A stretch of DNA of 64,000 bases from Bryoerythrophyllum caledonicum (lineage: Eukaryota > Streptophyta > Bryopsida > Pottiales > Pottiaceae): contig OZ020514.1 of the NCBI GenBank assembly GCA_963971425.1, positions 27,020,602 to 27,084,601 of the forward strand, read 5' to 3'. Made by a program: the position numbers and the translations under genes. The notes under the pieces were generated by a model. That model was not told where the DNA came from and ran no database searches. It worked only from the letters and a program-made list of their open reading frames with translations. This document shows, in pieces, positions 4,191-31,935 of the stretch (its first letter is position 1; every line of letters starts with the position of its first letter).

Positions 4191-4762
4191 ATACACTTTA
4201 GGTCGAATACACCTACACGGCACACATGAAAAATTGTATCATCAAGATCCATCCTAGTGCACTTTAGGTCGAATGGAGCTAAAATGCAGAAGGGAAAATT
4301 CACAGAGCAAATTTAACATCCAATGAACAAAAACAAGCTCAAATGAAGCAAAACTACAAGAGTGCAATGTAGCTCATCAACAAACAAAGACTGCCTAGGC
4401 AAGAACGACTCAATAGTGCAATAACTTGGAGGTCAGCGTAACACGCCCCGTGAGCGAGCGTTGGTAAGTAGCATCCCTGAAACCATCATAGTAAATACGC
4501 TTTGCCGGAGTACAATTATCCGGGTTTAGACGCGGAGACCCCAGAACTGAACGAGGCCACTATGGCAAAGGTGAGTTGTTCCTTTCATGAATTGGCTCCC
4601 ACGCAATAGGGCTTTCAACAACTCCGTCGTCCACTGCCATGGTCGAATAATCCATGGTTGACAGCGCGGTTGCAGCAGAGTGCAACAAAAGCCCTTTACT
4701 CTGAAGGGAAAGGGCAAACTCCTATGGGCCCAACAAGGAATCCACGGACGCCCGACAAGCAC
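3912..4762 (-). other. Unassigned short reading frames downstream of the FCP1-like gene
   Basis: Short overlapping minus-strand frames (for example 3912-4223 and 4526-4762) lie on the 3' side of the FCP1-like gene of element A. None matches a family I know, and they do not resemble the minus-strand gene at 21807-22502 downstream of the related gene in element B. They may be decayed 3' exons or chance frames. Two A-type palindromes (4193-4213, 4257-4287) lie inside this stretch. Confidence 0.25.
4193..4287. repeat. A-type palindromes, left group (one half site, one imperfect)
   Basis: At 4193-4213 there is a left half site (CACTTTAGGTCGAA). At 4257-4287 there is an imperfect palindrome with arms GCACTTTAGGTC and GAGCTAAAATGC. 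They mark the leftmost extent of the A-type signal. Confidence 0.7.
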
Positions 4763-4979
4763 AGCCCTGTAGAAATTTCAACAAAAGTGACACTCACATA
4801 TCTCAGAACAATAGATGAAAACTCCAATCTTTAAAAAGAGGACAACATTCCATCAACAGTAGGTATCCAATCCTCACAACAAACACAATGGAGAAACATC
4901 TCCATTTGTATTATCAAAAAATATATATACACAAAACATGGTCCAAAAAAATTTACAAAATGGAGCTGCAGTCAATCAA

Positions 4980-5010
4980 TACAGTTTAGCTCTATTCGAC
5001 CTAAAGTATA
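4980..5010. repeat. A-type palindrome next to the FCP1-like gene stop
   Basis: Arms AGTTTAGCTC and GACCTAAAGT flank a short centre, just downstream of the stop of the FCP1-like reading frame. Its centre (CTCTATTCGAC) resembles the variants near 13.5-15.0 kb, which suggests a terminal or 3'-flank class of sites. Confidence 0.7.
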
Positions 5011-5036
5011 TTAAGGATCTAAGCGTTTCAACGGCA

Positions 5037-6252
5037 TTAGGAGCGGAGATTCTGATAGGTTAGAATTACGTTACAGTTACTCGCAGACTGACCACACGTC
5101 TTCTGATCATTATAGAACATCTCCCGGCCCGAGGGATGTTCAGCACGGTACTGCGCTAGGCCACCCGGAAACAAATGAAGGTCAGAAAGATATGGGAGCA
5201 ATTCCTCCAGCAGTATAGAATCATCTCTCGTGCCATCATGGTTGTACGACCATGCCGGAAGTAGAAGGACATTCTTTGGCAAATTGAGCACATGCTTAAT
5301 TGGGCTATCGTCAATGACAAGCGTATTTGCCGGAGTATACTCACAACCCAACCTATTGAAGAGATGATTCGATAACGTCTTCAAGAAGATGTCCTTCTGA
5401 GTGCCAAATTCCTTCATGTAGATTGTTCTGCTACCGACTCTATGCTCGGGAACCCTATCGCAACTCTCATGACCAAGGAACTTGAGAGGGTACGAAGAAC
5501 TATGCTGAAAAAGATATTGACATATCTCACGTGTTGTAGATTCCATCATTGAACTCCAGATCGTGATGGTGGCAATCTTAGACAACTTCGTAAGGAATTC
5601 AGCACAACCAGGGCGCACCCGAACTAGCTTAGGGCCTACTTCGGCCGGCAGCAAAGCCGAGTAAATGGACGGGATAGAGTTCTTGGATCCCCTGGTGTGC
5701 CACGATGGCTTACACGTGCATAGAATCTCATTTAGGTCCAGCACAACATTCAACCACCTGCCCTCGGAATCTGAAAAGACTCTAGTAATTTCTTCTAAAT
5801 TACTGGCACCACTTATTCATGACTTGCAGACCTGGTTCGGAAACGCCAGGAGAACGAGCAATATTACCAAAGATTCATGAACAACAACAAGTCAACATAA
5901 TGTAGAACTAAAGAGAGCAAATGGGGGGGAAGCGACATGGAGAAGCGCACAGTGTATATAGTGTTAGAAAAGCACCTCGAGAACTTCATCATCTTGGAGC
6001 AATTCGTCTCGGACCCCCATCGATCCCAACGAAACCTGAATGGTGTCAAGGGGTTCCGAGTGCCCCAGAACGATTTGGAGGCACGGTTCCGAGACAAGAA
6101 GAGGTGGCTCCGGGACAGAAGAATCATGATTGATCTCGTCTACGAGCACGGCCGAAGCTTGGACGACATCTTCTATGACTGGGACTGCAGTTTGGACGAC
6201 CTCATCTATTACTGGTTGAGCGATCGCGTCATCACCGAAACTTAGATCTCAA
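5037..6252 (-). CDS. FCP1/NLI-interacting-factor-like HAD domain protein (element A)
   Basis: Two likely exons are visible. An acidic N-terminal exon (about 6252-5973) has a VIDEVVQ / VIEDVVQ repeat and ends at a GAG|GTGCTT donor. The main exon (about 5775-5037) follows a pyrimidine-rich TTTTCAG acceptor. The protein reads WLNVVLDLNEILC (HAD motif I, where the second Asp of DLDET is Asn), then TITIWSSMME (motif II region), then TLVIDDSP (motif III) and a PYLSDL tail, as in FCP1/SCP-type phosphatases. Plant relatives of the DLNG type also have Asn here, so it may bind phosphoprotein rather than hydrolyse it (inference). The main exon has no internal stop. It lies downstream of and on the same strand as the large gene, and could be a separate gene or its last exons. 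A homologue lies at 25188-26000. Confidence 0.7.
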
Positions 6253-6328
6253 AAAAATCAACAACTTCAACCTATTAGCAGATGCGCACATAGGACACTG
6301 ATACAAGTCAGAGTTGTCGGATGTTAAG

Positions 6329-6354
6329 CAGTTTAGCTCAAGTCAAGCTGAAGT
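6329..6354. repeat. A-type palindrome between coiled-coil part and FCP1-like gene
   Basis: Imperfect palindrome with arms CAGTTTAGCTC and AAGCTGAAGTG, in the non-coding gap (about 6253-6457) before the FCP1-like acidic exon. If the FCP1-like part is spliced to the upstream unit, this site is intronic like the others. Confidence 0.65.
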
Positions 6355-6426
6355 GCTCGCTGAGCACTGTAATATTAACAAAAAATACTGGAGTACAAAA
6401 TTGGACATTTACAAAATGTTCTACCT

Positions 6427-7425
6427 CTATACACTCGCAACTACGTTACAGTAACCTGACGATGAGCTGGGGACATCAACGAGAGATACGTCCCGAGCGG
6501 GCGACTTTAGAGGGGAAGAGGGGCGGGTCGGCGGGGACGGGGGATCAGGTAGCAATTGAGCCCCCATGGAGACGGGGGAGAAACCTGCCAGAGACGGCAG
6601 CAGCGAACCGCGAGGCAGACTCCCAATCCCTTCTTCAGCTGAGATGGGAGGCTGGGGGATCATAGTATTCACTACGGGTGTTGTCATGGCGACAAGAGGC
6701 AAAGTAGCCGTCATGAATCTCTGCATCATGAGCATCATGTCGTTATGCCTCAGGTCTTGGTCCCTCTTCATGTCCTCGTCACGCCTTCGCTACCTATCCC
6801 TGAGCTCCTCGTCACGCTCCGCGAGCCGCTGCTCCATCAACCTCATCCGGGTGGCCTCCTCTTTGAGCTTCTTCTTGAGGGCAATAAACCTAATGTCGTC
6901 CTGAGCACTGCTCGCCGTTGCCAACGGAGAGCGGCCGGTCGCGTTGGCGACTTTCCTCTTCTTGGCCACGAGCCGAGCGGACAACTCACCCAAGGTCGGA
7001 GGTGAATGAGGTCTCTCGGAGATATCAAGTGATTCCAACTCCAAGAAATCGAGCCGCTGCCGCGAGGTACCCATTGTCTCTCCCGCTTAAGACCCAGAGC
7101 CACTATGAAGCTCCGACGGAGTGGCGGTATCGAAATCGTCATGGGAATCGGCATCAGGTGTGGCCGTACTGGAGCTCAGGCAAACACCCAGGGGGCTGTG
7201 GACCACATCCTCCTCCTCTTCTTCATCGACGGGATCAATAACCACTTTCTTCTTCCCCTTGGCAACGGCCTCTCCAAGCTCGGGGAAGATCTCCGCGTTG
7301 ACGTGATATGCAACAACATTGAAATCGGCCCGATCCAACGTCAATGCGACCTCCATGGCGTCGTTGAGGTCCTGTTCATCGGTGCCGTGGGATATGCAGA
7401 ATGCCTCCAGATCCAACATCTGCAC
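6427..7425 (-). pseudogene. Acidic / coiled-coil / proline-rich protein of element A
   Basis: Three collinear minus-strand segments (7425-7087, 7074-6790, 6771-6427) are separated by in-frame stops. The first opens at an acceptor-like TGTGCAG|ATGTTGG and carries an acidic run (VDEEEEEDVV). The second is a Lys/Arg/Glu-rich predicted coiled coil (LKKKLKEEATRMRLMEQRLAERDEE, shown here only in outline). The third is Met/Pro/Ser-rich. I recognise no enzyme motif. The matching part of element B (27924-26462) also runs from an acidic low-complexity region into a coiled coil, though sequence identity is weak. A DNA-binding or multimerisation subunit is a guess. Confidence 0.5.
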
Positions 7426-7445
7426 ACCAATGGATTGAACAGGTT

Positions 7446-7691
7446 ACACTTTAGGTCGAATCGAGCTAAAGTGAATACAAAGGAACACTGATACGAAAAC
7501 GCAGCTATTAAAACTTGAAAAGATACGACGTGATTGATGACTGCTAGAAAACCATATAAAAATAAGCTGGCACTTTAGCTCGACTCGAGCTAAAGTGCCA
7601 CGCTACAAAAGCATAAGAGACGACCTCTCTGAAACAATACATGCACAGTCAGAGAGGGTATCAACAGTTTAGCTCGAGTCGAGCTAAACTG
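7446..7691. repeat. Three A-type palindromes in intron 2 of the element A gene
   Basis: Palindromes lie at 7446-7473, 7569-7599 and 7665-7691. The last is a perfect 27-mer with arms CAGTTTAGCTCGA and TCGAGCTAAACTG around one G. All three fall between the donor at about 7702 (GTG|GTAAGTATC) and the acceptor near 7423. Element B has three palindromes in the equivalent intron. Confidence 0.85.
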
Positions 7692-10600
7692 CAGAGATAC
7701 TTACCACACTCGCAGTCAGTAATTTCGTCCCGCCAAACAGCTGGACAACTGAATCCCTCCTCTTGCAGAACAGCTCTAGGACCTTGATGAAGAACTCCAT
7801 CCTCAGCTCGTTCATGTTCATGGAGTACGCCAGCTCGTTGTACTTGCGTAGCTTTGTGTGCAACACATGCTCCGGAGCTACGTAGGTCTTCTTCACGGCC
7901 GGGATCTGCGTAAGCTCCCTCTTGAAGAGAAAGAAGAGGCGAACCGGGTCCAGAGCGTTGTTGGTCTTTGGGGCATATCCCCCCAAGCGCTCGTTCTTGG
8001 AGGGAAGATACTTTGACTGCAGCTCATCGTACGCATGGCACAACGACGGGCCCTCAGCAAACGCTGTCACTTGAAGGTGTGACTGCTCGTCGCCGCAAAT
8101 GAAGAGCCACGCTGAAAGACCGGTGAGGGGAGGCTGCCCTTTCGATGCAAACATCGTCATGAACTCGTCGAAGAAGGGCCTCTCCAACGACGACGTTGCC
8201 TTCCCTGAGAAACCACGGATATTCCAGAAGTCGATGATGTCGAGCTTCACGTTGCAGCCCATGTTACGCATCTGAGGGCCATCCTCTGAGCGAGTTGGTT
8301 GCCACCTTGTATGGACGAAAATGCATGGCCCCATGAGGTGGAACAAACCGCGACCGCACATCGAGGAAGACTCTGAAGAACTCTTTCGCATAGGGAGAGA
8401 GATCCTCACATTTGTAGTTGCGAAATTGCGTCTGCCTCGAATCCTTGTAGTATGAATCCGGTGGACCCCAATCCAAGAGGGCATGCTTTGAGGCCTTGCT
8501 GACGTTGTAGTCCTTCTTAAACTTCCGCCAGTTGGCCCGACTGTACGCTCCAGCGCTGTTGAAGAGGGCAAGCTTCGGCTTGATCAATTGAAGCTCCTTT
8601 CGAGCGACCTCCTTCCTCTTCCTTCAATCGACCCAGTCCCGGGTGCTGTAGCAATCCTCCAGCACAGATTGCGGCTGCTTCACAACCACCTTAGGATAAG
8701 GTAGTTTTCGCGATGGTCCTGATCGATTGAGTATATGCTTACACAGTGTTGCGTGATCAGCCTCGGTCATGTTGCTGAAGAACTTGAAGAACTCGCACGT
8801 CAAAACCCCATCTTTCTCAGGCACCCACGACTTGGCGTCTTTAAACTTTGACAAGGTCGACATTGTTGAATCGACGTTGATGAAGTCGCCTTGCGCCGCC
8901 AAAGAGATGACATCCGACCAGAGCTTGAAGGTCTCATCGGACGAGGTGATAATCTTCACCTCTTTTGTAATCGAGAGCTCCTTCGCCTTTCCGGCTTTCT
9001 TGAGCGCTGCCTGGCTTTTCGCAACGTCGATCATTGCGAAGCGCTCACGAAAAGCATTTAGAAATGGTTGTGTAGAACATTGGCAGGGTTGATTTAGTTT
9101 ATAATCACAGTAGAAAATATACGTGACCAACAGGTCCGGAAAATGCAGGTTAGCTCGAGTCGAGCTAACTTGCAACCGGAGAGTATACACTATAAGCGAT
9201 TGAATCTGTATACACTACTATACTAAAAGTGTGCAAACACACAAGTTAGCTTGAGTCGAGCTAACGTGCACGACCTTGGTTTAGTAATATTACCTCAAAC
9301 TTCTTGTCATTAGCAATCTCAAGTGTTGTTCTCCGACCAGACTTGTGAGACCCGCGAATGCCCGCGGCGGAGTGCTTTGGCATTGGTCTCCCAACTTGGA
9401 TCCACAAAGCACGAGAGCCAAGGATATTTGTTGCCCACGTCGTCTTGAATAGGACCAAGTGATTTACGCGATTATAATATTCAGAAATCTTCCTCAACTT
9501 CTCTCGGTCCTCCGTCCAGACAATGTAACATTGCCATGTTCGAAAGTGCCTTCTCATCACCTCCGAGACGTTGCCGTTTATCATCGACTTTCATGCTGCA
9601 ACGCTGTACTCGCCGTCGATGATATAGAAGTCGCAGTCGCTGAGCTCCTCAACCGTCGTTGGCATATGATCGAGCTTGGGCATGACGCAGAGAGTCTGCT
9701 TCTACGTCTTGTCCGGCATTTCGAGGTAATAATGCTTCAACTCCTCCATACCTCGAGGTTCGAATGCACGGATCGTCCACTCCGATGGTGCATTATGCAG
9801 CCTCATCAAGCTTGATCTTCATCTCTCTATCACCTTGGAATAAGCAGCTCTGACACTCCGTCCAGAATTTCTGGTAAATCTATTGGACGTTGGTGTAGTC
9901 GATTACCTCTCCAAACCCAAGCGCTTGAGGGAGCTCTGACAGTGCAGAGGCCATCAAATTGGCCAACTCCTCCTTTGAAACGAGCTTCGTCTTCTTCCTA
10001 GAAGAGGTCTTCGGCTTCTAGGCAGCTAAGCGCTTCTTGACGGGGGAAGCAGACAGTGCGTTGTGCAGGGTGCTTTGACTTGTTCTTGCACTTGGGGTTC
10101 TAACCGGTACCGACGCTTGACTCATATTTTGACTATCGGTCACGGCCCCAAAAACTACCGAAATTTCTATTGGGCGCCACCCCGCGATTAATTTTTCCTT
10201 CTCAAGAACAGCAAAGGTACTCATTCTGGATAGAATGATGCGGAGTTTATTCGCTACAGCCTTCGCTTTCAATGGCTGACCACTACTAGTCTCCCATTTC
10301 TTTTGTGAGATTTCGTGGTCGACCTGAGCCACTATATCATTAAATTGTGACCCCCTAAGAGAAGTGACTAAATCGTGGATACAGATTAGAGACGAAGTAT
10401 TGTTCACTACAATAGTAAACAAATAAGGATCGACAGACTCAGTGGTTGTCTCACACGACAACTTCACTATATCGTTATCTTCGTGGACTACATCAATAAT
10501 TTTGGTCTTGAAGTCGGTGTGTTGGGGTTCAGTGATATCACCAGCGAAGGTCTGACCAAACACTAGATTATCTGTGTAGGAGGCCCACAACAGCGTCCAC

Positions 10601-10739
10601 TTCATTGTCATTGATGGGTCTTTGAGCTCCCAACAATCCAAGTGATTGTTGTTGTCTCCATCGTCATCATCAATGTCGACAGACTTTGGCTGGAAGAAAT
10701 GCTGCAGCTGAGTAACCATCATGCCCCTCTCAGATCTGC
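7684..10739 (-). pseudogene. Large unknown protein of element A (shared with element B)
   Basis: Likely exon 1 runs from about 10739 (acceptor GTGTGTGCAG; start ATG near 10722, reading MMVTQLQHFFQP) to a GAG|GTAATA donor near 9293. Exon 2 runs from about 9090 to a donor near 7702. Exon 1 has an acidic start (DIDDDDGDNNN), a basic stretch (SSRKKTKLVSKEEL) and a segment with IIDGEYSVAASK followed by WQCYIVWTEDREKLRKISEYYN. Exon 2 has EVKIITSSDETFKLW, YPKVVV and a Lys/Arg-rich WVD-RKRKE region. Each segment aligns with element B. The DG-Q/E-H/Y segment recalls ParB/DGQHR-like folds, but I could not test that. In-frame stops include 10018, about 9881, about 9690, about 9598 and one after WVD near 8624. 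The last replaces an Arg that element B retains (CGA to TGA). Function unknown. Confidence 0.6.
9144..9271. repeat. Two A-type palindromes in intron 1 of the element A gene
   Basis: Palindromes at 9144-9174 (arms TTAGCTCGA / TCGAGCTAA, extended by TGCA at both ends) and 9240-9271 (GTTAGCTTGA / TCGAGCTAAC). Both lie between the exon ending near 9293 and the exon starting near 9090. Element B also has exactly two palindromes in the equivalent intron. Confidence 0.85.
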
Positions 10740-10803
10740 ACACACACAAAACCGAGCACAAATATTTGATTGCTAAATTGATCATCCAATAAAGACGGAG
10801 AGG

Positions 10804-11462
10804 TTACACTTTAGCTCGACTTGAGCTAAAGTGTATCCGAATGCAAAGTATTTTAGTAACACTCTGCAACATAATATAGTCATTTGTAATGTTTTCTTAA
10901 ACCCATTCAATCAATTCATGACATCTTCTTGTTCATCTCCTGAAACTGTGAAAAAGCTTACGAACCGATCCAATCACTCACGAAGCTCACTATATGAGGT
11001 TCTCAAGTGGTTGAAGCAGGACTTAAGCTCATGCACAATTTCTGAGAGGTGAACGAGAAGTGGACATGAGTTGGGTCAATGATATCATCGGTAACCTTTA
11101 CTTTTGGAATGTTTTTAGGTCCGAAAGTAGTGGTGTTTGAGTTGTGGTTTATGTCATTTGTTTTACACTTTAGCTCAATTCGAGGTAAAGTGTGTTGGAT
11201 TTGATGATTAGATAGATAATTTATTTCGATAGGTAGAGTTATCGAGTTGTGAATATTATCAAATGCATCTATGTCCGCACTTTAGCTCGAGTCGAGCTAA
11301 AGTGCCAACAAAGATGCATTGGTCCCGTATAGTTTAGCTCTTGTCGAGCAAAAGTGTACTGGTCTAATGCATCTTTGTCCGCACTTTAGCTCGAGTCGAG
11401 CTAAAGTGTAGCCAACAGTGTGCTATTCTGGCTCCACTTTAGCTCGACTCCAGTTAAAATGT
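10804..11462. repeat. A-type palindromes in the leader intron, four of them spaced about 52 bp
   Basis: Sites at 10804-10834, 11163-11193, 11278-11304 (perfect, CACTTTAGCTCGA / TCGAGCTAAAGTG), 11330-11356 (degenerate), 11382-11408 (perfect) and 11434-11462 (degenerate). The last four have centres at 11291, 11343, 11395 and 11448, so spacing is 52, 52 and 53 bp. The text AATGCATCT-TGTCCG precedes both perfect copies, showing local duplication. All lie upstream of the first coding exon and downstream of a donor-like AAAG|GTATGTG near 12192. Confidence 0.85.
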
Positions 11463-12192
11463 GTTGATTGAAAAGCTTTTGTATTACAATTTCTGCAGGT
11501 TTGTGTTTTGTATAATGATATTCAAGGCATAGGGTATAGGGCTCATGGGTTAGAGTATGGATTTTACCTTTCAGCCATTGATTATGAACTCTAATCCCAG
11601 ACAAATTCTGCTGGAACTAGATGTCGTGCAAGATCAATAACAAACAATCAATCAACGAATCAACCAATCAATCAAACAACCAATCACTCTATCCCAAAAC
11701 CAAAATGCAACATGCAGATAGAAAATACAACCACACATAAGCAATCAGAAAGCAGAACCACAGAAAAACCTAGTCATTCAGCAGTATGTTGAACATTCAA
11801 CACATTGAACGTTTCAACACATTCAACAATGAATACATTCAACATTCAACACATCAAAATCAACACATTGAACACAAAGTAGCACATTCAAAGCAGCACA
11901 TTGAAACTAATTTTCTTTTTTAAAAACGAACTAGCATCAACACTACGACAGAACATAACACCAATTCCACAAAACAACAATCAATACACGCACTCCTAAT
12001 ACAAACAGAGACTAAGAGCAATAAGACACAACAAATGCCTGAAGAAAACAAAAATCATACAATCCCAGCAAACACCACCAAACACCATAATTTCAGCTAA
12101 CAGAAAACTAGAAAACACGAAACATCAGACATAATTCACCAAACCAGAAAAACCATGAAACAATTGTACAAGAACGCGATCTGTACACATAC

Positions 12193-12720
12193 CTTTAAGT
12201 GTCGAAAGTCTTCTTCAGCTTCTTATTCCTCCTTCTTGTTCGAAATTCACGTCAATCCTTCACAGCTTCACGCGTTTCAATCTCTACGTGCTTGAAACCT
12301 CACTCAATTCAAACCCTCACTTCCTGTAGATCCTATCAGCAGAAAACCTAAGCCTACACAATTCGGAGAACGTGTGCAACAAACCCTAACAGAAACTCTA
12401 TTGAAAGTGCTTCTACAAACACGAACTGAGCAATACTCTACACAAACAGACGCGCAACACGAACACGAGCATACCACGAACACAAGCGCAGCACGAGCAC
12501 GAGCAGAAGACAAACACAAACACGATCACAAAACTAACTTAGACAAGCCACAGACACAAAGACGAAGACAAAAGAGAACACGCACACCACAGACACGAAC
12601 ACGAAGACGAAGGAGAACACCCACAGGAGCACGGAAAGGAGAGAGAGAGAGAAAGAGAGCTCGCAGCCCGATTTGAGACCCTGGACGTCTTCAATTCAAA
12701 ACCCTAAGCCGTGAGGACGG
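12193..12720 (-). promoter_or_regulatory. Probable leader exon and promoter side of the element A gene
   Basis: CA/GA-rich low-complexity sequence (acacgaacacgaag-like on the plus strand) ends on its left at a donor-like AAAG|GTATGTGTACAG near 12192. Element B has a similar low-complexity CA-rich zone at about 32200-32650, in the same place relative to its gene. I infer a 5' untranslated exon; no TATA box is clear. Confidence 0.4.
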
Positions 12721-12732
12721 CTCCTATGGCCG

Positions 12733-12838
12733 TGTCGAAACCCTCCGGATACCCTTAGGATACCCTTGGGATCGCCTAGATACCCTCGGGATGCTCCCTC
12801 AGATATTGGGCTAATACCCTCGGGTATTATGGTGGATG
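12733..12838. repeat. GGATACCC-type short repeats upstream of element A gene
   Basis: The units GGATACCCTTAGG, GGATACCCTTGGG, AGATACCCTCGGGATG and AATACCCTCGGGTATT occur within about 100 bp. The last is itself a palindrome with AATACCC / GGGTATT arms. They differ in sequence from both palindrome classes and sit just beyond the leader exon. Confidence 0.6.
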
Positions 12839-13542
12839 CACCAACTTTTTCAGAGATTTTTTTTAAAAATTTACTTTTCGATTTTAAAAAAAAATTACTT
12901 TTCGATTTTAAAAAAATCAGTTTGATTTAGTACTTTTTGCACATTTTCCATTTCATTTTAAAAAAAAGTTAAACCTTCTCATAATTTCAATTTTTTACAC
13001 GTTTACAATTTCTCTACTTGTAAGTTTCCAAGACAATTTCTCTGAGCCTAAAACACTACAAATTTGTAAATTCTCAGGCAATGATCGAGAATCAAAGAAA
13101 ATATAATATTTCCAATTTCAAACGTATGGTTTCATTTAAGATTTATATTTTCAAATATTCTTTATAATATACAAACTTTGATTGCACGGACGTGAACAAC
13201 TTATGTGTTTAGTGTTGAAAATAGGATTAAAGTGCTTGGTTTTTTTTCATGCTTTGAGTGGATTAGTTGGCTTTCACCTGACACAAATTTAATTACTGCA
13301 TTACACAAGGTGTAAATTCATTACCATCGTTATATATAAGTTCCTCCTACACCAGTTATTAGGTGTTGCAGAGGGATGAAGCACATTTAAAAATAGTTCT
13401 AACGATACGATTTAAGATTCTATTACTTTGAATTCCAGTTTTCATTTTTTTTGAGTTTGATATTTTTTACTATGTGAATCAAACAGCCTATTAGTTTGTT
13501 AAGACCACATCTTGCAGTAGTATAATTTTAAAATAAATGCCG

Positions 13543-13645
13543 GTGCATACTTTAGCTCTATTGGAGCTAAAGTGTGCAAATTTGCTTTATAGTTCCCTAC
13601 ATTTAGTGATGGTGCACACTTTAGCTCTAATAGAGCTAAAGGGTG
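13543..13645. repeat. Two palindromes of the 69-bp subterminal class
   Basis: Centres at 13561 (GCTCTATTGGAGC) and 13630 (GCTCTAATAGAGC), 69 bp apart. Each is flanked by TTTA / TAAA and followed by a unit like TAGTTCACTGCACCTAGTGA, which recurs near 14916 and 20958. The core differs from the intronic class (CTCGA-S-TCGAG). Confidence 0.8.
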
Positions 13646-13649
13646 AATT

Positions 13650-14879
13650 TTTTCTTTTTATTTCACTTTATTTTGCTTTAGTATGTTAAGCTTTAGAATA
13701 TTTGCTTTTACTGTAACGATACAAATAGTGTAGTTACAACATCTCCGCCCGTGACGGGAAATTTTCCACACCAACAGGAGACGTGCCCTAGTTTGAGATG
13801 ATGGAAGAGGGGTTACCCTTTCCCTCCCGCACCCGTCCTGGAATTGGCCACTCTAGAGGAAGGTCAGCGCTCGCCGCTGTCGCCTTAGTTGGCGCATTTT
13901 TCTTTAGGTTTCTATTGTGTTTTTAATTCCCTCGTGTTATTACATGATTGGACACATTCTCCGGGACCCTCTGCCTCGGTGGAGATGTTCTTTTTCTAGT
14001 ACACTATTTGTCAACAAGTTGCCAATTAGTTTTAGACGCCATTGTCATTAATACTATCCTTCATTTGTCCACCTACTGCAGTTCATTTTGTAATAGCCCT
14101 CGATCAAAATCCTACCCTAGCACACAAATTTGTTACTTCATAAATAGTGTTAGCTCAGAATCTTCTACCAACCAATCGCCATGCATTTATTCTTCTTGTC
14201 TCATCTTCAACCTCAAATTCTTATCGTCTTATTCAGAACTATTCTCATTATTTTGTCTTGCATTTCTTTTACATTATTTAGGAATATCTACTGAATATTT
14301 AATGTGTAATCATATCTTTAGCCAATAATTAATGACTTTGTAATAATTTTTTATAGAATATTTAATGTCTATTTATATATGTGTAATTTTTATGAACAGT
14401 TAAAGAATATTTAAATATTATTTAATGAATATTTAGAGTTTTAAAAGAATATTTTATGACAGCTTACTTAATATTTGTATATTTGTATATTTAAGGATTA
14501 TTTATAGAATATTTAATGTATTGTTAATGAATAGTTAATGAACAGTGAATAAATTTCAATTGCAAAATCAATGTGTATTCGCATATTCAATGAGTATTTA
14601 ATGAATATTTACTGAATATGTAATGCACATTGAATGCATATGTCATGGATATCTAATGAATATTTTTTTTGTATTTCTATATTTATTGTACGTTTAAGTT
14701 TTTCACTTCTCCAATATTCCTTTCTTTTCTCACTTTCGTTCCCGAAAGAATGTTCTAATTTTTCCAATCTTCTACATGAAATTTCATTTTTCCTTCATAT
14801 GTATATTATACTTTGTCCAATTTTTGAGATTTTCCTTTTGCTTCATACCTATGTCCTATTATTCCCAAGCTCCTTCTAA
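13650..14879. other. AT-rich non-coding stretch interrupting the 69-bp palindrome array
   Basis: No convincing gene. About 14280-14660 is dominated by TTTAATGAATATT-like short repeats. The palindrome array stops at 13645 and resumes at 14880, so about 1.2 kb may have been inserted within it. I found no target duplication. Confidence 0.4.
13700..13735. repeat. CACTA-like terminus similar to the one at 32944
   Basis: Read on the minus strand, the sequence is ACTACACTATTTGTATCGTTACAG, close to CACTACACTA-(7)-TCGTTAC at the right end of element B. The first base of CACTA is changed. It may be the right end of element A, but it lies inside the palindrome zone, so an internal remnant is also possible. 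Confidence 0.4.
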
Positions 14880-16560: not shown

Positions 16561-16574
16561 ATTTTCGTCGACCG

Positions 16575-21806: not shown

Positions 21807-22502
21807 TTACTCAAGTCCTAGGGCCTTTAGACGCAATGCCTCTTGCGCTTTAAATTTTGCTTTACCAATCATGATTTCCCTTCTCCGAGAATAAGGTTTA
21901 AAACACCAATCCGGGTCAACTGCCAACACACTCTCAGAAAGAGATGACATAGGACACAGACCACTATGAGCCCCACAACCATCACGAACTCGAGACGGAA
22001 CAGACTCCACTTGATTCGTTAACGGTCCTGAGCTTCGAAGCCTCAGTTATACACCCACACATTGAGTTTGACACCTCACTGAACAACTAAGACAGGTTAT
22101 GTCCTTCATTGCACCTTGAGAACGTGAAGCGGAATACCAGCTTTGCTTAGCGGGCGGCTGTCTACGATCGGAAGAATTAGGCACATCCTCCTTCTCCATG
22201 TTCAGATCGACACCATCTTCTCCGTACAACTTCCGTTGAGGAGTACAATCAGTTCTATCTTGAACAGCAGCGAACATCCGCTTGAGAGGTGAAGGGGATG
22301 CAAGAGGCACTATCCCAGCCCTCCGCTCGGGACGGCTATCTACAACACCATCATCGACCTTATGCTTGGAGAAGTCCATGATAGCAAAGACAGCATCACT
22401 TGCAATGCACATAAGATATGGTTTCGATTGCTGGGGCTGGGAGATGTCACCACCATAAGACCCAGAGTACTCCGGAATGACGCTAACATCCAAGGGCAAC
22501 AT
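21807..22502 (-). pseudogene. Unrecognised minus-strand gene, interrupted upstream by a CACTA insertion
   Basis: One frame runs from ATG at 22502 (MLPLDVSVIPEYSG) to 21807, with a single in-frame TAA near 22047. The predicted protein is about 230 residues with a Ser/Pro/Arg-rich middle, a Cys-rich stretch (CLSCSVRCQTQC) and a basic C-terminus (YSRRREIMIGKAKFKAQEALR). I do not recognise the family. The CACTA element 22504-24842 is inserted immediately before the start codon. The gene lies downstream of the element B genes on the same strand and may belong to B. Confidence 0.45.
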
Positions 22503-22503
22503 A

Positions 22504-24842
22504 TACTATAAGAAACCCGTGTTTTTTGTCACGTCCTGAATCATGTCCCATAAGACATGTAGACATCCGAATTTACATCCCTCTGACGTACCAACGCGTG
22601 TAACACGCTATAACGTGTGGGGACATCACCAAAAACGCGAGGACATCCCTGCGACAGGGACGATTTTCACAGATTTTGGGAGGCTGGAAATGGTGCCAAC
22701 TGGGCGCCACGTAGACGACACCTAAGCGGCACGATGACGGGCAGTGCCACATGGCCGGGAATTTCATCCAATCCAATGGTGACGTGGAATCTGATGTGGC
22801 GTTTGACCTGGACCCGGGAAAGAGTGACGTGGCAGGCCACGTCAGCAGAGAATTGCGTGGTTTTTTTTTCAGATTCGTGTTTGCGGGGACGTCATTGGTA
22901 ACATGGCTGTGTTTTTTAAGACATCCCGGGTTGACGTGGAGATGTCCTGCTCGATGTCTACGTCAACGCTACCTGGATTTTGATGTTGATTTCGTTGAAC
23001 ATCGCCATGCCCTAGAGGACGTGGCCATGGACATGATCACGTCCTCCAATATGTTGCCGACCCATGGTCATCGGCAATGAGGGTGTCATCGTAGACGTCT
23101 CAAAGAACTTATGCGTGTCTGACGTGACATCCCCTGATGCATGGTATTGCTGACGCTGTGTATGTGATGGTGTTTTGGAGGGACATTGAGAGATGTTGTA
23201 CAAGACATGAATACGTTGTACAAGACATGAGTACAAGACATGAATACCTCATCTTACATGTAACATGTACATTCATCCAAATTCATGCTTACTGGCCTAC
23301 TTGCAAATGTGATAATATGATATACACGCAATTTAAAATATGTCTCCATAGACACGGGGATGTTTCAAGAGACGTCCCTGCGTTTCCTAAGTGCTGCGGC
23401 ATAGGTCTTCTACAACATGGTCACGTCTATATGTCGCTCACAGCACATTGCATGTCCAACACTGCACCTCTAACCTCTACACTCTAAACTCTAACCTCTA
23501 CACTCTAAACTCTAACCTCTACACTCTAAATTCTTACCTCTACACTCAAAACTCTAACCTCTACACTCTAAACTCTAACATTCTAACTTGTAAACTCAGT
23601 CTACACTCTAAAACTCCAACCTCTACATTCTAAACTCTAACTACTTGGAGAAATGAAGGCCAAAGTGAGCTTTGTGCAACCTCAAATTCTACTTAAAGGT
23701 CTCATGACCTAACTATGGTTGCAGCAGCTAACCCTAGCCGCCTCATGACCTAACTATGGCTGGAGCAGCTAACCCTCGCCGCCTCTATTCATCCAATGAA
23801 CTTGACGAAATTCATCCTACTTGATGGTTATGTTTTGCAAGACACGATGATGTTTTCCAGGACATGTCGATGTTTTCCAGGACATGTCAATGTTTTGCCA
23901 AACACTGCTGATGTTTTCAGAGACGTCTCTGTGGGATGTCCTCAAAGACATGTAGACATTACTCGAGACATCTTCAATTGGATGTCTCAAGTGACGTGGA
24001 CCTATACACAGAATGACGTGTCACCTTGTCCGACATGGAATTGTGTTTGCCATGTAGATGAAGTGCTGTAAACTACAAAATATATAATATGTCCACATGG
24101 GTAAGCCACCAAGGACTTTACAAAATCACCCTAAATTCCTTATAATTCGGGTTTTGGTAGAAAAGTGGTAATTTAATATTATATTAATTAATAAATATTA
24201 TTTAATATTTAAATATACAGTACTGAATTTAATATGTCCGCTTTAATTACAGAATAATCAGTTTTTATAAAATATTATTATAATATTAATTAATATTTTG
24301 TATTTTTAATATTTAAAATTAAATTTTATTTTGGAAACCATTTTGATACGAAGTGGACAAATCAAAAATTTCAGAGGATCAAAGTTAATAAATATAATCA
24401 GAATATTCTTCAATTTGATATACTTTATTTTTTTTTTTAAACAAAAAAAAATCTAGTTTTATAAGGCTCGTGCCTTTTTTTTTCTCCTCTTGCAGACCAC
24501 TGCCCGTTTCGTTTTTTTTTTAACGTTGGGCTGCTTTCTACCTTGCACAACAGTAACTTCGACATTCTTACCCCAGGTAAAACGCTTGTCCGCTGCCAGC
24601 GTGGCAGTTTTGCGTCACCCAAGATGTCCTCGATGACGTCCTCAGAGACGGGCGCGTTGTTGGAGACATCGTCGCGTCTCTTATTTCGCACGCGCGTTTC
24701 GGGACCCTCCCACCTCCACTATTCATTATTGACGCGTGGACATCCTCACGTTCACGGGAACATTACTGGCTAGCTCCAAGACATCAAAAAAACACGCTGA
24801 CATGATTAAGGACATAACAAAAAACACGGGTTTCTTATAGTG
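22504..24842. mobile_element. Non-autonomous CACTA (EnSpm) transposon
   Basis: The left end reads (T)ACTATAAGAAACCCGTG and the right end its inverse, CACGGGTTTCTTATAGTG. The terminal inverted repeat extends about 45 bp with few mismatches (on through TTTTTTGT-A/C-TGTCC and TCATGTC). The flanking triplets are ATA at 22501-22503 and ATA at 24843-24845, a 3-bp target duplication as expected for CACTA. Inside there is no transposase. Subterminal repeats of GGACATC / GACATGT / GACGTGG type are frequent on both sides. The 2.3-kb element must have relied on a partner element for movement. Confidence 0.92.
23466..23645. repeat. Minisatellite inside the CACTA element
   Basis: Tandem units close to CTCTAACCTCTACACTCTAAA (about 21 bp), around eight copies with variants. 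A separate imperfect duplication of about 45 bp (CTCATGACCTAACTATGG...) lies at about 23699-23787. Confidence 0.9.
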
Positions 24843-24845
24843 ATA

Positions 24846-25187
24846 CTACCAATATTCAGGCATGCGACAAGATCAACACTAGATTTTGAAACCTGAAATA
24901 CATTGGAATAAAGCAAGTAATGAGAGAATGACATGAACACATGCTAAGCAATGAAATTATGCTTGATCCGAAGATAAGTTTATGCCATCATAAGAGGTGA
25001 CAAACACGACAAATATGTAGGAAAAAACAAACGGTTTTATATATTAACTGCTTTCAAAATATATACAAGATTTACAAGTACTTTTTAGCAACAAGTATAT
25101 AACAAAATGTATCCCGCGTACTAAACCTGCATTGAAAACCCCTACATATAAAGTTCCCCTATATCTTGAGTTGAGTTACTCCTACAA
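24846..25187. other. Non-coding flank between CACTA element and FCP1-like gene B
   Basis: AT-rich sequence without a supported gene or palindrome. It is the 3' flank of the FCP1-like gene of element B. Confidence 0.4.
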
Positions 25188-26000
25188 TTATTTAGGAGCT
25201 GATTTAAAAACATTGGGAATCTCGTACGCAGTACCCATGTTCCTTGTCGAGAGCGCCATTCCATCAATAATGTGCTTCATTATGGGACTATTACGCACCA
25301 AAGGAGGTGCCCCTATACGATTACTATCGATGTAATTCTTCAACTGCCCGAAAGGACATTCAGAATGCAAGTAGCGAAGCCACGAAAGAAGGGTCCCGGT
25401 AAGGACATTATCATTTGTATCTCCGCGTCTGCATGGAGGCAGAAAGATGGCATTCCCAACAAAATTACAAACACTCTTCTCTGGGTTGTCGTCATTAAGA
25501 AGAGTGTTGTCGGAGTTAAAGACTACCGAATCATGCCGAAGGCTAAACAATGTTTTTGACAAGGTTTTCAAAAACATTGGCTTCTGCTTATTATCTTTAG
25601 CCATAAGGTACACATTCCGCGGAATTTTTATCTGTGAACATTTCTCTTGACCTAGAACAAGAAAAGGAGGCACCAGATCCTTGAAGAGACAAGCCGTGAT
25701 CGCCTTGACTGTGGATTTCTTCATAGAGCTCCAGATGACGGCAGAGTTCAGAAAGTTTTTGATGACCGATAAGAACTCACGAACACCAGGACGAAAGTAG
25801 ACCGCCTTGGTCTAATCAAGGTAGGAATGGTGGACGAATAATCTGTCCGTTGTGAGCTATGCGCGGTAAGCCTCACAGCAATAGAGACTGAATTCGTCAC
25901 GCATAGAATGCCATTCAAATCCATGACGAGATTTAGCCACTTTGGTGGCCCGGCGCTCTCATCAGCGGATACAAATCTAGGAATAAGGTTCTGGGACAGG
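25188..26000 (-). pseudogene. FCP1/NLI-interacting-factor-like HAD domain protein (element B)
   Basis: It starts with PKWLNLVMDLNGILC (compare GRWLNVVLDLNEILC in element A) near 25950, then a shifted frame with FRPGVREFL near 25800 and VIWSSMKKSTVKAI (compare ITIWSSMMESTTREI). It ends with a region like motif III in which the VIDDSP of A is replaced by LNDDNP. The second Asp of motif I is Asn in both A and B. The reading frame changes between 25950 and 25750, so this copy is broken. It is downstream of and on the same strand as the large gene, exactly as in A. An upstream exon may lie around 26224. Confidence 0.6.
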
Positions 26001-26461
26001 ATCAACACACAATACAGTAAATGGTAGCAATAAGTGGAAGGTACCTTATAAAATGCAGATTGAGTAATATACAATGGAATTGTCACTGATTGCACAAATT
26101 CCCCCCCCCCACATAGCGACTGGGATACAACTATCCCAATTGGAGACTTCAATGCTAGAGGACCGTGGACAATGTCATCCAATCCAATGTGAGAAATAAT
26201 TAAAGAAAATGAATCATTAAACAATTCTTTAAATTATGATAGCATTGTATATACAAAAATTTACACTCCTCGTAAAGTACATCAAAAAGCGTATGGATCC
26301 GACGCCTGCATGGAAATACATCCAAGAAAAAACCTATTGAGTCTGAGGTTGAGCACAGTCATTCCAAAAAATCAAGGCTGCACTTCATGATAAAACGGGA
26401 AAAAACGTATTTAAAAGGTAGCCAACCTTATCCACCTCTGATGACTGTGGTCCGCGAGGCT

Positions 26462-28038
26462 CTAGAGACGGCTCATAGTCGACGCGCTCCTCCATGCACA
26501 CCTCTTCTCCCTCCACCGCAGCTTCCACATGAGACAACTCTTCTCCAAGCTGAGCAGGGACCGATAGAGTCGAACCGCCAGGAAGAGTAGAACCACCAGC
26601 ATGGACATCACGCTCACGAATAGCAGCACCGACCCCTTCTGTCGTAGGCAAAAGGGGAGTTGGATTTGAAGGCTGAGTATCCTTGGGTCGAGGATACTCA
26701 GAAGCCTCGGACAATGCAGAGGGGATATCCCCGAGCAGAACCGGCGCCTCAACCGAAATGGCGGCTTCTCCAGTTGGGTGAGATGAAAAGCAAGGTTACA
26801 ATCTAGTTGAAGGAGGTTGAGGCTCAGCCACAGGCTTATCCTCCGTGCGAGGATAAGTGGAGGGATGAGGCACGACAAAAGTAGCAGTGGGGATGGGAAC
26901 CAAATGTGAGCTTGCTCAGTAAGACGTCGGTTGAGTTCCACCAACATCTGCGCTTGGATCTCCGCACGGATTGACGTCGCCATCTTCTCCTTCTCTTGCT
27001 TAGACTCCGCCCGCTGCTTCTCGAAAGAAGATTCCATCTGAGCCTGTCTTATCTCGGCAGCCTCTAACTGTGCCAAAATTGTCTGCCTCTCCTTCCGCTC
27101 CTGAAGGCGTTGGTTGCGTTGGTGCTGATAAAAGTCAGCACCTGGTTTGTACTACACAGGTAGCCCAGAGGCCGGTGCATATCCAACTGCATTTGCAAAG
27201 GCGGCATCAGGTAGGGAAGCGCCCTCCACAGGCAGCCCAGGGGCCGGAACATGCCCAGTTGGATTTGCGGAGGCGGCATCCGGTAGGGAAGCGTCTTCCA
27301 CATCCATAGTAACCATCATTGTCACCACGGTCGGTGCCACCACATTCTGAGATGTATTGGGACGATCTCCACCTTCATCATCACTGGAGTCGGACAACAG
27401 GATGACATGGATATATCTTACAACGGTACCAACGACGGGAACATCTGCTGCAGGGGCGGTACCAGCGACGGGAATATCTGTTGCAGGGGCGGTACCAACC
27501 AAAGGAGATATGTCAGGACCGCCTTGAACTTCCATATAAACGACTTCGTCGTTCCTCGGAAAGTCTTCGTCCGCGAGCACAGGAGATCGGCGAGGAGGCA
27601 ATCTACTACGAGATCGATATGATGGCTCACCATCATCCAAGCTTAGGATCGAAAGGTCGACGCCGTCATTGCCCCTATATGGATTGACGAGCAAGGAAGA
27701 GGCATCCTGAGGAGGCTGTTCAGTTGGTGCACAGCTACCAGATGCCCTCTGGGTCTCGAGGGAGTCCTGCCGCAATCCAGTATCAGAGCGTTGAGCACGT
27801 TGGCGAACAGGTTCAGCCCTCCGTGGCGAGATTCGGGCCCTTCGAATGCGTTCTGAAGGTGCAGCCTGAGACGTCGATGTAGATGCACCTCCAGCGTTGG
27901 AAGGCATAGGCTAAAGGTAAACACAGTCTTTGTAGATGAAATCTTTCATGTCGAACTGAAAAATGCGCTGCATTTTAGTTTTGTACTGAAGCCGGAAGGA
28001 TTCATCAATGAGTCCATAGAAAGAGGATCCAAACATCT
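26462..28038 (-). pseudogene. Low-complexity plus coiled-coil protein of element B
   Basis: After an acceptor-like CATGCAG near 28039 a short exon reads MFGSSFYGLIDESFR. A long frame 27907-27152 is Ser/Pro/Arg-rich at first (RIRRARISPRRAEP) and then acidic. It ends with two copies of a motif close to VEGASLPDAAFAN-VGYAPASGLP, encoded by a roughly 70-bp tandem duplication at 27170-27300; a second duplication lies at 27420-27500. The next frame, 27076-26462, begins with a Glu/Gln/Lys-rich coiled coil (LEAAEIRQAQMESSFEKQR) and is followed by Pro/Ser-rich sequence in overlapping frames. The parallel in A is 7425-6427. At least one stop separates the parts. Function unknown. Confidence 0.5.
26675..26857. 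repeat. Two B-type palindromes inside reading frames
   Basis: GAGTATCCT...AGGATACTC at 26675-26699 and CTTATCCTC...GAGGATAAG at 26835-26857. Unlike the other B-type sites, both fall in sequence that is open in the coiled-coil unit. Confidence 0.75.
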
Positions 28039-28112
28039 GCATGAGACACGAGAAATTAAGATCAAAAATTGGATAATGGAAAAAATTATAAACTGAAATG
28101 AAATCAATTGAC

Positions 28113-28244
28113 TATCCTCGACTCGAGGATAAACCACTCTGAAACTAATGACAGCAGACGAAAATTTTATATCCTTGACTCGAGGATAGACTGCAATGAT
28201 ATAAACGACAGCATACCGTATGGTATATCCTAGACTCAAGGATA
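28113..28244. repeat. Three B-type palindromes in intron 2 of the element B gene
   Basis: Sites at 28113-28131 (perfect 19-mer, arms TATCCTCGA / TCGAGGATA around C), 28170-28188 and 28226-28244. They lie between the donor near 28272 (AATCTG|GTACGC) and the acceptor near 28039. The exon before it ends KFMLANL, matching KLLTASV at the same donor in element A, whose intron also holds three palindromes. Confidence 0.9.
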
Positions 28245-28272
28245 GACTACAATGATACAAATGAGAGCGTAC

Positions 28273-31198
28273 CAGATTGGCCAGCATAAATTTGGAACCA
28301 TTGAAAACTCCGAAAACCCTCTCCTTTGGGTTGCAGAAGTCCCGGAGTAGCTCCAAGTAAAACTTCATCCGTAATTCCGAACTGTGGACGGAGAAGTCTG
28401 CCTCCAGATACTTATTCTTCTCTTTGTAGAAGAATGTATCTGGTGCAGACTAGAACGGCCTCACTCTGTCAATGAGCACGGAAGCCTGGGGATGACTCTT
28501 CTTCACTAAGAAGAGTAGGTTGACATCTGTAACCTTAGCCCTCAACGTCTCATAATACAGGCGCTCATTGGCTGACGAAAGGTACGCCGAGGAGACGGGC
28601 GAATACCGTGCCATCCGCTTTTCGGCAAACTTTGTAGCTTGCAACGCACGGTTGGCGGAGGAGGTGATCCAGATTCAAACATGAAGAGTACTCATGTTTG
28701 GGGTACTCTTTTGCAACTTCATGGCATTCATGAAGTCTGCGAAGTATGGTTCGTCAAGGGAGTTGTCCTTGGACAACCAACCAGGTACGTCACGGAGGTC
28801 GAGAAGTCCTAGTGTAAACTCCTTAGAATCATCTGGAGCGGTGAAGTAATTAACAAACTCGAGATTCTCCCCATCAAAGTCGCGAAGTTTCACATAACCA
28901 TCGTGCAGGGTGAACACGTTCTTCAAATAAAGAAACTTCTTGAAGAACGGAAAAACGTTCGGGAACTTCTCAAGCAGATGAGATGCTCATTTCAGCTTCC
29001 CGACATTGGTCAACCTCATCAACCAGAACTCCTTGTTGGGTTGACAAAGGAGCATGTTGTAAGTAGCAGAAGACACACGGTGTTTCTCCTTCAACTCCTT
29101 CCACATTGCGTCGTTGATCGACCCATTTGGAAGTAGAAACAATAAAGATGGTTCGATGTGCACCAGCTCTTGCATGACGACGCGCTTCTTCTTCTTTCGA
29201 TCAGCCCACTCCTCGTAGTGGTAGCACGATCCATGTACCACGCCAGTCTTACAAAGCGTGACCTTTGGATAACGTTGCTCGCAATCACTGTCAACCAGGT
29301 AAGTGAACAAATCTCTTAAATCCTGGTCGGACAGATGTCCCAACCTCTTAAAAAATTCACGGTGGATTGGCGAAGGCTTGAAACTCCTAGCGTCCTTGTA
29401 TGGACAAGCTGTGTCCGGGTTTACGATGTCTCTATGGTTGTGCTGACCGAGGAATTCTTTCCACAGGTTAAAAATGTCGTCCGGAAGAGTGATGACCTTA
29501 ATCTCGTTCGTAAGGTCCGATGACTTGTTCACTTGCTTCCCTTCCCTCGTGGGATCGATGTTCTAGAAGCGCGTTACAATCAACTTTGCAAACAACTGCA
29601 ATACAATATAGACAACATTAGAGATATTAATCATGGATACCGTATGAACGAGTATCCTCGGCTCAAGGATACTTTAACAACTAGCAAATGACATATCAAC
29701 TAGCGGATACGCAAAATCGATATTTAAATCATACACGAGATTTGGTACAATGTATACGAGATGTCAAGAGAAAAGGCATGGAAGAGTATCCTCGACTCGA
29801 GGATATTTAAGGAAGTGGAACCATACCAAGTACTTCTCCTGGTCGAAGTTGGCACCATTCATTCGCAAGTCGCCCTTGTCATGTTGGTAGCTTGGTCTAT
29901 CAGAGTTGAGCCAGATTCTCTTGTAGCTTGAAATCTGGTTCCTCCACGTAGGTTGGGCATGATCAAGGTAGTTGGTATCGTTGTAGAACTTTGAAATCCT
30001 TTGAAACTTCAGAGGATCCGTTGTCCACACAACATATGCATCCCAATTGCACAGGTCATGTTTGCGTTGTTCCCCGCATTGTTCAACATGTTGAAGTCTT
30101 CTGGAAGCTTCGACGATGTGTTGTCCATTGATCAACATGAACTTCCCATCCTTGATCTCATCCCAGGAATTGGGCTTCCGCGTTATCGTCTCTCGAGCGT
30201 CATCGATCGGGCAGATGCAAATCTTCTGCCGCTAGTTTACCTCTCCAAGTTGGACCAGAAAGTCCATGGAGTTTCGGACTATGCCCTCCTCCATCCCACA
30301 AATCACGAACTGGGCTTTGGCGGGCACACACTATTCGATATTCACGGTGAATGTGGACTCGAACGGGAAGCAAGACTTGTACTCCTCCCAAAACAATCTT
30401 TGGGACTCCGTTGTCTTCTCGAAGTTTACTTGGGGGTCATTCCGCGATTTCACCGGAGTTGTAGCCCTCGTAACAATCAAGGTCGAACTCCCACCGGCTG
30501 TAGCCGTCTTCTTCCGTTTTGAGGGTTCCTCTAGATTGGAGGCCATCTCAAAAGCCCTCCGTGGAGCACCACGACTCGTGCTTCGAATTGCACTTGTAGC
30601 TTCTGTGGTAACGTCGCCGCTTGTTGCACTCTTCTGCTTAAGCCGACGTCGTGGAGGTGGAGCGACCGGAACCGGGCGGGCCTCAAAGTTTGTCAGGAGT
30701 TGGTGAATACGTCCCAATCTCTGGTTTACCTTCTCAGCATCGTCGTTTGACCACGGACTGTATTTTTCGAACGCTTGATGAAACGCCCCATGCCCATTTT
30801 TATCGGCACTCTCAAGCAATTCGTTGAAGTCAAATTGCCCGGAAGTGTCACCGACTTTCACAACAATCAAGTGAAAGTGCAGTAGGTCTTCCCTAGCTTT
30901 GTCCATGGCCTGGATACCGAGAACGATGTAATCGCGTCGACGCTACTCCATGAACATCACTCTCTCATTTCTGTTAAAAGGAACATATGGAATTTCTTCT
31001 TTCAGTTTGAACGAAAGAAGAACGTTCTTTTCCGACCTGAAGGACTAGCCAATGATGTCGGTGGTAAACGACCACAGCTTCCCGTAGTTCTCGACAACGT
31101 CGTCGATGAAAGGCAGTGGGGCGAAAGGATTTTCGAACTCCGTGATGAAGTATGTTGACCCCGAGTAGTCGTAGTTGTCAACGGGATCCATTGGGATT
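28273..31198 (-). pseudogene. Large unknown protein of element B (homologue of the element A protein)
   Basis: The frame starts near 31171 (MDPVDNYDYSG, or MSQRRSPIP at 31198) and continues collinearly to about 30200 through in-frame TAGs near 31045 and 30946. Segments in order are LLHFHLIVVKVGDTSG, a basic Pro/Arg/Thr-rich stretch, VNFEKTTESQRLFWEEY, then MLINGQHIVEASRRLQ followed by WDAYVVWTTDPLKFQRISKFYND (30138-29764), a donor near 29826, an intron to about 29599, then NEIKVITLPDDIFNLWKEF, YPKVTLCKTG, EWADRKKKKRVV and LLFLVKKSHPQ. The order and many residues match 7684-10739. INGQH / IDGEY is the most enzyme-like motif shared. The protein would exceed 850 residues if intact. I know no family for it; a role in mobilisation or in binding the palindromes is inference. 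Confidence 0.6.
29653..29805. repeat. Two B-type palindromes in intron 1 of the element B gene
   Basis: Sites at 29653-29671 (one arm imperfect) and 29787-29805 (perfect), both inside the intron between about 29599 and 29826. Element A has two palindromes in the equivalent intron. Confidence 0.9.
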
Positions 31199-31250
31199 GG
31201 CGATCTACGTTGAGACATTAGGAAAATGGGTGAGATAGTTAACGTATTAT

Positions 31251-31935
31251 TATCCTCGACTCGAGGATAGATATCAATCGCTTTCAACTTAAATAAATTC
31301 TTTTCGCACATTTATCCTCGACTTAAGGATAAAGACATTATGTAAGCTGTTCATTTAGATGTGTTATCATGACGGAGACCAAATATATTGATTTACCTGC
31401 AATTTACCTAGTGAAATGGACAGAGTTTGGATTGTATCCTCGACTCGAGGATACTGAGAACTCTTTAGAATGAGATTCTCGTCAACTTACTTCATGCATC
31501 TATTACAGATCAATTAAATATTCTGATTTTTAAATAATAATGGTTATTTTCTCGACATTAGATTGGACAAAAGACTACTGGATTGACAAGTATCCTCGAC
31601 TCGAGGATACTTTGATCTACTATGAAAGTGTTATTTGTTATATTACATCATGCATCAGTATAAAACGACCTAGTTATGGTAAGTTTTTGGATGGGTTGAA
31701 TTATCCTAGATTTTAAAATGAGCTGTATGCACAAGGTTGACACTTATCCTAGACTCGAGGATGAGTGGGACTATTATGAAGGGATTATTTGAGCTTTATC
31801 CTTACTTGAAATTATATTTGAATGACTTTTATCCTCGATTCAAGGATAAACTGTAATCAGAAGATTGACTCTTAACCTCGACTCGAGGATAAGGTGCTAG
31901 CCGACGGACTATCTCGTATCCTCTACTCAAGGATA
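31251..31935. repeat. Eight B-type palindromes upstream of the first coding exon
   Basis: Centres near 31260, 31322, 31444, 31600, 31754, 31839, 31881 and 31926; three or four are perfect TATCCTCGA-C-TCGAGGATA and others have one or two changes. Spacing is irregular, unlike the 47-bp array. The position mirrors the six A-type sites at 10804-11462. Confidence 0.9.

Follow-up and report, generated by a model that had tools for sequence, protein, structure and literature searches.

VANC proteins of Arabidopsis bind introns, intergenic regions, and terminal non-coding DNA of VANDAL elements, and in the excerpts of the two reports that describe them (PMC5735166, PMC10398659), VANDAL elements carry tandemly repeated short motifs that vary from one related element to another, with the proteins changing along. 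The terminal inverted repeats (TIRs) of VANDAL elements are called degenerated in the excerpt of PMC10398659. Here, we describe a potentially similar arrangement in a stretch of 64,000 nucleotides from Bryoerythrophyllum caledonicum (contig OZ020514.1, positions 27,020,602 to 27,084,601 of the forward strand). This whole stretch is called the window, and all coordinates are positions in it. The window contains an element of ~18 kb (element A, 3620 to 21610) with two divergent genes, namely, gene A and a second gene with a DUF7869 domain, as well as a region with a relative of gene A (gene B). Both carry odd palindromes of 19 to 27 bp, which fall into an A-type and a B-type class. As we read them, tentatively and with somewhat less than even confidence, each class would be a private label bound by an element-encoded protein that co-evolves with its motif and counteracts silencing in a VANC-like manner.

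The likeness to VANDAL and VANC is one of sequence. As in the VANDAL elements of these excerpts, the motif is repeated through introns, intergenic regions, and terminal non-coding DNA (0 of 34 A-type and 2 of 15 B-type sites lie in coding models), the A and B motifs differ in their arms, motif units stand in tandem, and element A is a multi-gene DNA transposon. Unlike the non-palindromic YAGTATTAY, the motif here is a palindrome, and unlike VANDAL elements, element A has clear TIRs of 29 bp. By analogy, the system may work like VANC, but we do not class it as VANC or VANDAL because no VANC or Mutator domain was detected. As VANC domain, the excerpts name DUF287, and DUF1985 is likewise a VANC domain; in the scanned pieces of the A and B proteins, Pfam gave no match to either of them up to an E value of 10 with the HMMER filters on, and no Mutator-type transposase (VANA) was found in the pieces scanned, the second gene matching DUF7869 only.

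A further system for comparison is CACTA (En/Spm), whose members have CACTA termini and a 3-bp target duplication. Element A ends in AACACC and has a 4-bp flanking repeat, its sites are not mainly subterminal, and no CACTA transposase domain of the TnpD type was matched in the pieces scanned. It resembles CACTA elements, as far as the excerpt of PMC2613891 describes them, in its large size, in the combination of a (here possible) transposase with a presumed motif-binding protein, and in motifs that differ between relatives.

Two palindrome classes in the window

The palindromes, to which an earlier note on this DNA had drawn attention, proved to be real. Their core, CTCGASTCGAG, with no more than one mismatch is found 23 times in the window compared to 0.49 times expected, and none of 100 shuffles reached 23. 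With the arms scored as well and 40 Markov sequences as background, the A-type pattern (TTTAGCTCGANTCGAGCTAAA, up to 5 mismatches) gave 35 matches compared to 0.33 in the Markov sequences (largest, 3), and the B-type pattern (TATCCTCGANTCGAGGATA, up to 4 mismatches) gave 16 compared to 0.25 (largest, 2). Thirty-four A-type matches lie at 4197 to 21270, and the remaining one (31872) is a B site; 15 B-type matches lie at 26678 to 31935, and the remaining one at 24958 (4 mismatches) was taken as chance and dropped. Hence, within the window, 34 of 34 A-type sites are inside element A and 15 of the 15 retained B-type sites are in the gene B region. In IMG/VR, neither the 21-bp A palindrome nor the B palindrome plus one extra 5′ G was matched exactly, and in the papers searched, the motif letters led to no earlier description, with only one 12-letter half-site term matched.

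In gene A, six A-type sites lie in the leader (10810, 11169, 11281, 11333, 11385, and 11438; 10810 to 11458), two in intron 1 (9149 and 9245; 9149 to 9265; arms GTTAG/CTAAC), three in intron 2 (7450, 7574, and 7668; 7450 to 7688), and four decayed ones in the 3′ half, in parts inferred to be non-coding (4197, 4263, 4985, and 6332; 4197 to 6352). Four are located between the divergent genes (13551, 13620, 14880, and 14949; 13551 to 14969), eleven in the leader of the second gene (17121 to 17704), nine of these at an exact spacing of 47 bp, and four behind the second gene (20919, 20990, 21063, and 21250; 20919 to 21270). In both genes of element A, sites stand just 5′ of the inferred coding start. 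Gene B has eight B-type sites in its leader (31251 to 31935), two in intron 1 (29653 and 29787; 29653 to 29805), three in intron 2 (28113, 28170, and 28226; 28113 to 28244), and two degenerate ones in a low-complexity coding stretch of exon 3 (26678 and 26837; 26678 to 26855). Around the latter, one frame of exon 3 reads YPRPKD and YPRTED. Tandem spacing is seen as the 47-bp units of the second-gene leader, as 56-bp units in B intron 2, and at 52 to 53 bp in the gene A leader; the B leader sites are not tandem. Array units are present in both orientations.

The numbers of sites that the earlier note had listed for the two first introns (two each), the two second introns (three each), and the leaders (six in A, eight in B) are as it claimed. 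It had also described an 11-bp core common to both classes with different arms; the arms do differ, but the core is not constant in A, where CTCTA replaces CTCGA at 13551, 13620, and 14880 (left core in these three) and at 20919.

Introns were called from GT..AG ends read in the sequence, and the B exons were joined in phase across introns 1 and 2. Both introns lie at homologous positions in A and B: gene A intron 2 and the donor of its intron 1 (9293) are at places matching gene B, and the acceptor of gene A intron 1 was not identified. The centre of the first site lies 38 bp (A intron 1), 26 bp (A intron 2), 30 bp (B intron 1), and 37 bp (B intron 2) from the donor. This regularity has a probability of 0.003 under a uniform model that was chosen after the fact, and it is left unexplained by a protein-bound label. 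Later spacings differ between A and B, a 56-bp tandem repeat is listed for B intron 2 but not for A intron 2, and past introns 1 and 2 the counts diverge, with four more sites in the 3′ half of A, none there in B, and the two exon 3 sites in B. The proposal that site positions had been kept is borne out by the equal counts in the first two introns and by the first site downstream of each donor, but not by the later spacings, the 3′ half, and exon 3.

Identities among palindromes and among spacers were taken as the better of both orientations with gaps allowed, array units being also inverted. In the leader of the second gene, palindromes are 84.2% identical compared to 66.1% for spacers (9 palindromes, 8 spacers; shuffled spacers, 56.0%), in the gene A leader 85.8% compared to 66.4% (4 and 3; shuffled, 56.9%), in B intron 2 91.2% compared to 57.9% (3 and 2; shuffled, 56.2%), and in the B leader 89.5% compared to 36.0% (8 and 7; shuffled, 35.1%). 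The A arrays show a modest contrast; in the B leader it is strong, and the spacers there resemble each other no more than shuffled ones do. Furthermore, the sites avoid coding models, which are our own and were drawn with the sites in view: these models make up 44% of element A (binomial probability for its 0 of 34 sites, 3e-9) and 68% in the case of B (1.8e-5 for 2 of 15). CpG transitions at 4 of 20 positions account for 14 of the 39 mismatches in the 25 A sites with a CTCGA core, and at 4 of 18 positions for 8 of the 18 mismatches in the 15 B sites. This is what one would expect if the sites had been methylated once the copies were dead.

Element A, gene B, and neighbouring repeats

Element A was previously placed at 3.9 to 13.7 kb; its TIRs extend it to 3620 to 21610 and bring in the second gene, which had not been reported. 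The left TIR (3620 to 3648, plus strand; 29 bp) matches the right TIR (21582 to 21610, minus strand) at 28 of 29 positions, compared to 21 to 22 for the five highest of 60 shuffled pairs. The termini read AACACC.., and AAAT stands on each side as a candidate 4-bp target site duplication (3616 to 3619 and 21611 to 21614); a TTAA-type flank (ATAA left, TTAA right) is a possible alternative with an imperfect fit. With inverted termini and a candidate target site duplication, element A is a TIR DNA transposon (class II).

Gene A (3911 to 12192, minus strand) is broken by stops and frameshifts. It comprises a leader intron (about 12191 to 10736), exon 1 (about 10720 to 9294), intron 1 (from 9293), exon 2 (about 9043 to 7705), intron 2 (7704 to 7420), exon 3 (7419 to about 6440), a NIF phosphatase-like domain (5816 to 5037; PF03031, E = 2.6e-17), and last exons that reach to about 3911; the leader intron and the last exons are our own reading of the sequence. 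The second gene (17806 to 20551, plus strand) resembles DUF7869 (PF25273) proteins (E = 1.4e-38) and has seven in-frame stops, two in its first piece and five in its second, with one frameshift between the pieces. From a reading of its residues, its product is possibly a transposase. None of the papers searched names DUF7869, and a search of IMG/VR gave no confirmed relative of the DUF7869 piece (one pattern-matching stretch, unconfirmed).

Gene B (21810 to 31218, minus strand) consists of exon 1 (31218 to 29827), intron 1 (29826 to 29596), exon 2 (29595 to 28273), intron 2 (28272 to 28037), exon 3 (from 28036), a NIF-like domain (about 25188 to 25980; PF03031, E = 5.9e-6), and last exons (about 22505 to 21810; best piece 50% identical over 32 residues, E = 8.6e-5). 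Its 3′ part is split by a CACTA-like insert (22504 to 24842) with 43-bp inverted ends that are 93% alike and ATA flanks. The earlier note had bounded this region at 25.2 to 32.9 kb, but the gene continues past the insert to about 21.8 kb. That A and B encode the same ordered proteins, as the note also held, agrees with our comparison, in which the gene pieces are colinear on the minus strand with 28 to 39% identity. For B, the window shows neither a DUF7869 gene nor inverted ends above chance; without a second gene and a terminal repeat, B may be truncated.

The NIF phosphatase-like domains of both genes read DLN, the usual motif of NIF phosphatases being DLD, and going by this motif both are perhaps inactive phosphatases. 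The in-frame stops of gene B (down to 26902) are 8 TAG, 2 TGA, and 0 TAA in 1283 codons, and one in-frame TAG stands at the same aligned place in A (9702 to 9704) and B (30232 to 30234), in a stretch of 29% identity. C-to-T changes at methylated CAG and CGA would yield a stop bias of the TAG/TGA type. Recoding of TAG as an amino acid was considered and set aside in favour of decay, as both genes of element A show TAA stops in addition, plus frame changes.

Other repeats are present in the window. A tandem array of units of about 20 bp around the palindrome AACTTAAGTT lies at 33917 to 34175 and is unrelated to classes A and B. A perfect 16-bp palindrome, GGTGTCAATAGACACC, is found at both 40178 to 40193 and 42341 to 42356, its copies sitting in two diverged repeats (39559 to 40268 and 41710 to 42431) that are 67% identical. 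CCCTAAA-type repeats are also present.

Possible readers of the palindromes

In our model, the palindromes would be an address label private to the element and recognised by a protein that it formerly produced. The many copies in cis, in leader, intron, intergenic, and terminal DNA, would concentrate the protein on the element that encodes it, and the protein, once bound, would keep this element free of silencing chromatin, as VANC does on VANDAL in Arabidopsis. When protein lineages split, the motif would follow by duplication and turnover, and the outcome could be two elements such as A and B, with different arms around a shared core. Co-evolution with a binder encoded by the element had been suggested before, and it is still the best reading, in line with the confinement of each class in the window, the palindrome/spacer contrast, and the kept letters of the core. 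We infer from these observations that a protein binds, which protein this is, and that binding leads to anti-silencing, not to transcriptional activation or transposition alone. The product of gene A/B is favoured as the binding protein because in the B region sites are retained although there is no DUF7869 gene.

Several points weigh against this model. Every gene copy is broken, and only two lineages in one window are compared. The choice of the gene A/B product is weakened by the possible truncation of B. No DNA-binding domain was found in the A and B proteins by Pfam up to an E value of 10 (best E values of 0.025 and 0.081, unrelated), and there was nothing credible in PHROGs (best, 0.046), NCBIfam (0.09), or PDB profiles (0.054 and 0.1); structure prediction gave models with a mean predicted local distance difference test score (pLDDT) of 34.6 and 31.6, which are unusable. 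Faint helix-turn-helix hints are seen only in the second gene, with a Pfam Xre-like helix-turn-helix at E = 0.2 and a PHROG DNA-binding family at E = 0.15, both non-significant. Finally, the sites were picked by motif likeness, which biases the comparison toward palindromes over spacers, and a single-orientation version of it (81.4/44.9, 83.3/28.7, and 91.2/62.2%) overstated the contrast and was not used.

Two stretches of the A/B proteins had caught our eye: one in exon 1 is ParB-like (INGQHIVEASRRL), and the other, which closes exon 2, resembles methyltransferase motif I; neither was supported by Pfam, PHROGs, NCBIfam, or PDB, and both are leads only. In IMG/VR, 62 stretches matched the pattern of the exon 1 protein and none was confirmed as a relative.

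An unlikely alternative is that the transposition machinery uses the palindromes as its own sites, where the DUF7869 protein or a TnpA-like helper would bind and draw the ends together, as with CACTA subterminal repeats. It is consistent with the presence of sites toward either end (4197 and 21250) and 5′ of the DUF7869 gene, in its leader, as well as with the helix-turn-helix hints in the second gene, and in soybean CACTA elements, subterminal motifs presumed to be bound by TNPA-type proteins differ between related elements, according to the excerpt of PMC2613891. However, 26 of the 34 A sites are located in leaders, introns 1 and 2, and intergenic DNA, up to about 8 to 10 kb from an end, and even the outermost lie 340 and 577 bp inside the termini. 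Moreover, the 15 sites of the B region, which may be truncated, occur without a DUF7869 gene in the window or detected inverted ends.

The other suggestion of the earlier note, a hairpin function in RNA, we consider improbable. The palindromes would then be hairpins in leader and intron RNA that control splicing, bind proteins, or give rise to small RNAs. Indeed, most sites lie in stretches read as transcribed, seven tested sites fold at −9.7 to −25.6 kcal/mol, and the first site follows the donor by 26 to 38 bp in all four introns (with the post hoc uniform model behind the value of 0.003). The outer arms also pair beyond expectation, the A count being made in all A sites other than 4197 and 21250 (32 sites): A positions 11 to 16 from the centre pair within the site in 122 of 192 cases compared to 96.9 across sites (0 of 5000 shuffles), with position 11, itself variable, pairing in 19 (11.5 expected) and position 15 in 20 (9.2 expected), and B positions 10 to 14 pair in 32 of 75 cases compared to 18.9 (10 of 5000 shuffles), positions 10 and 11 in 20 of 30. 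However, this excess fades when arms are exchanged within clusters (A, 633, 698, and 1548 of 10000; B, 632 and 943 of 10000; B positions 10 and 11, 314 of 10000), so that shared tandem descent explains much of the pairing, and arm covariation was rejected as proof of a hairpin after this control. The letters themselves point to DNA: positions 1, 4, 6 to 9, and 12 from the centre carry one letter in 29 to 32 of the 32 A sites in both arms, and next to the centre, at a base that a hairpin would leave unpaired, A stands in 30 of them and T in 31. Since these letters are kept and four A sites (13551 to 14969) lie between the inferred starts of the divergent genes, in DNA inferred to be non-transcribed, DNA binding is favoured over an RNA hairpin; furthermore, no Rfam family matched in 3000 to 34500.

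Least probable of all is that the palindromes are enhancers or insulators through which a bound host protein activates the element genes. Although placement in leaders and first introns suits enhancer-like elements and the A and B proteins have no recognised binding domain, a host factor gives no reason why the arms differ in two related elements of one genome or why sites stand between and behind genes.

It is conceivable, although we would sooner doubt it, that a transposon lineage unrelated to Mutator and VANDAL has a co-evolving anti-silencing system of its own, in which palindromes serve as sites and a NIF phosphatase-like domain is attached to a DNA-binding protein of a kind that escaped recognition. 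In that case, element-private address labels would have arisen more than once. The protein and the motif class can both be read from sequence, and their co-evolution is therefore testable family by family. The existence of another such system, with unrelated genes and a palindrome as its motif, would point to private labels as a general way for transposons to escape silencing while the host is spared.

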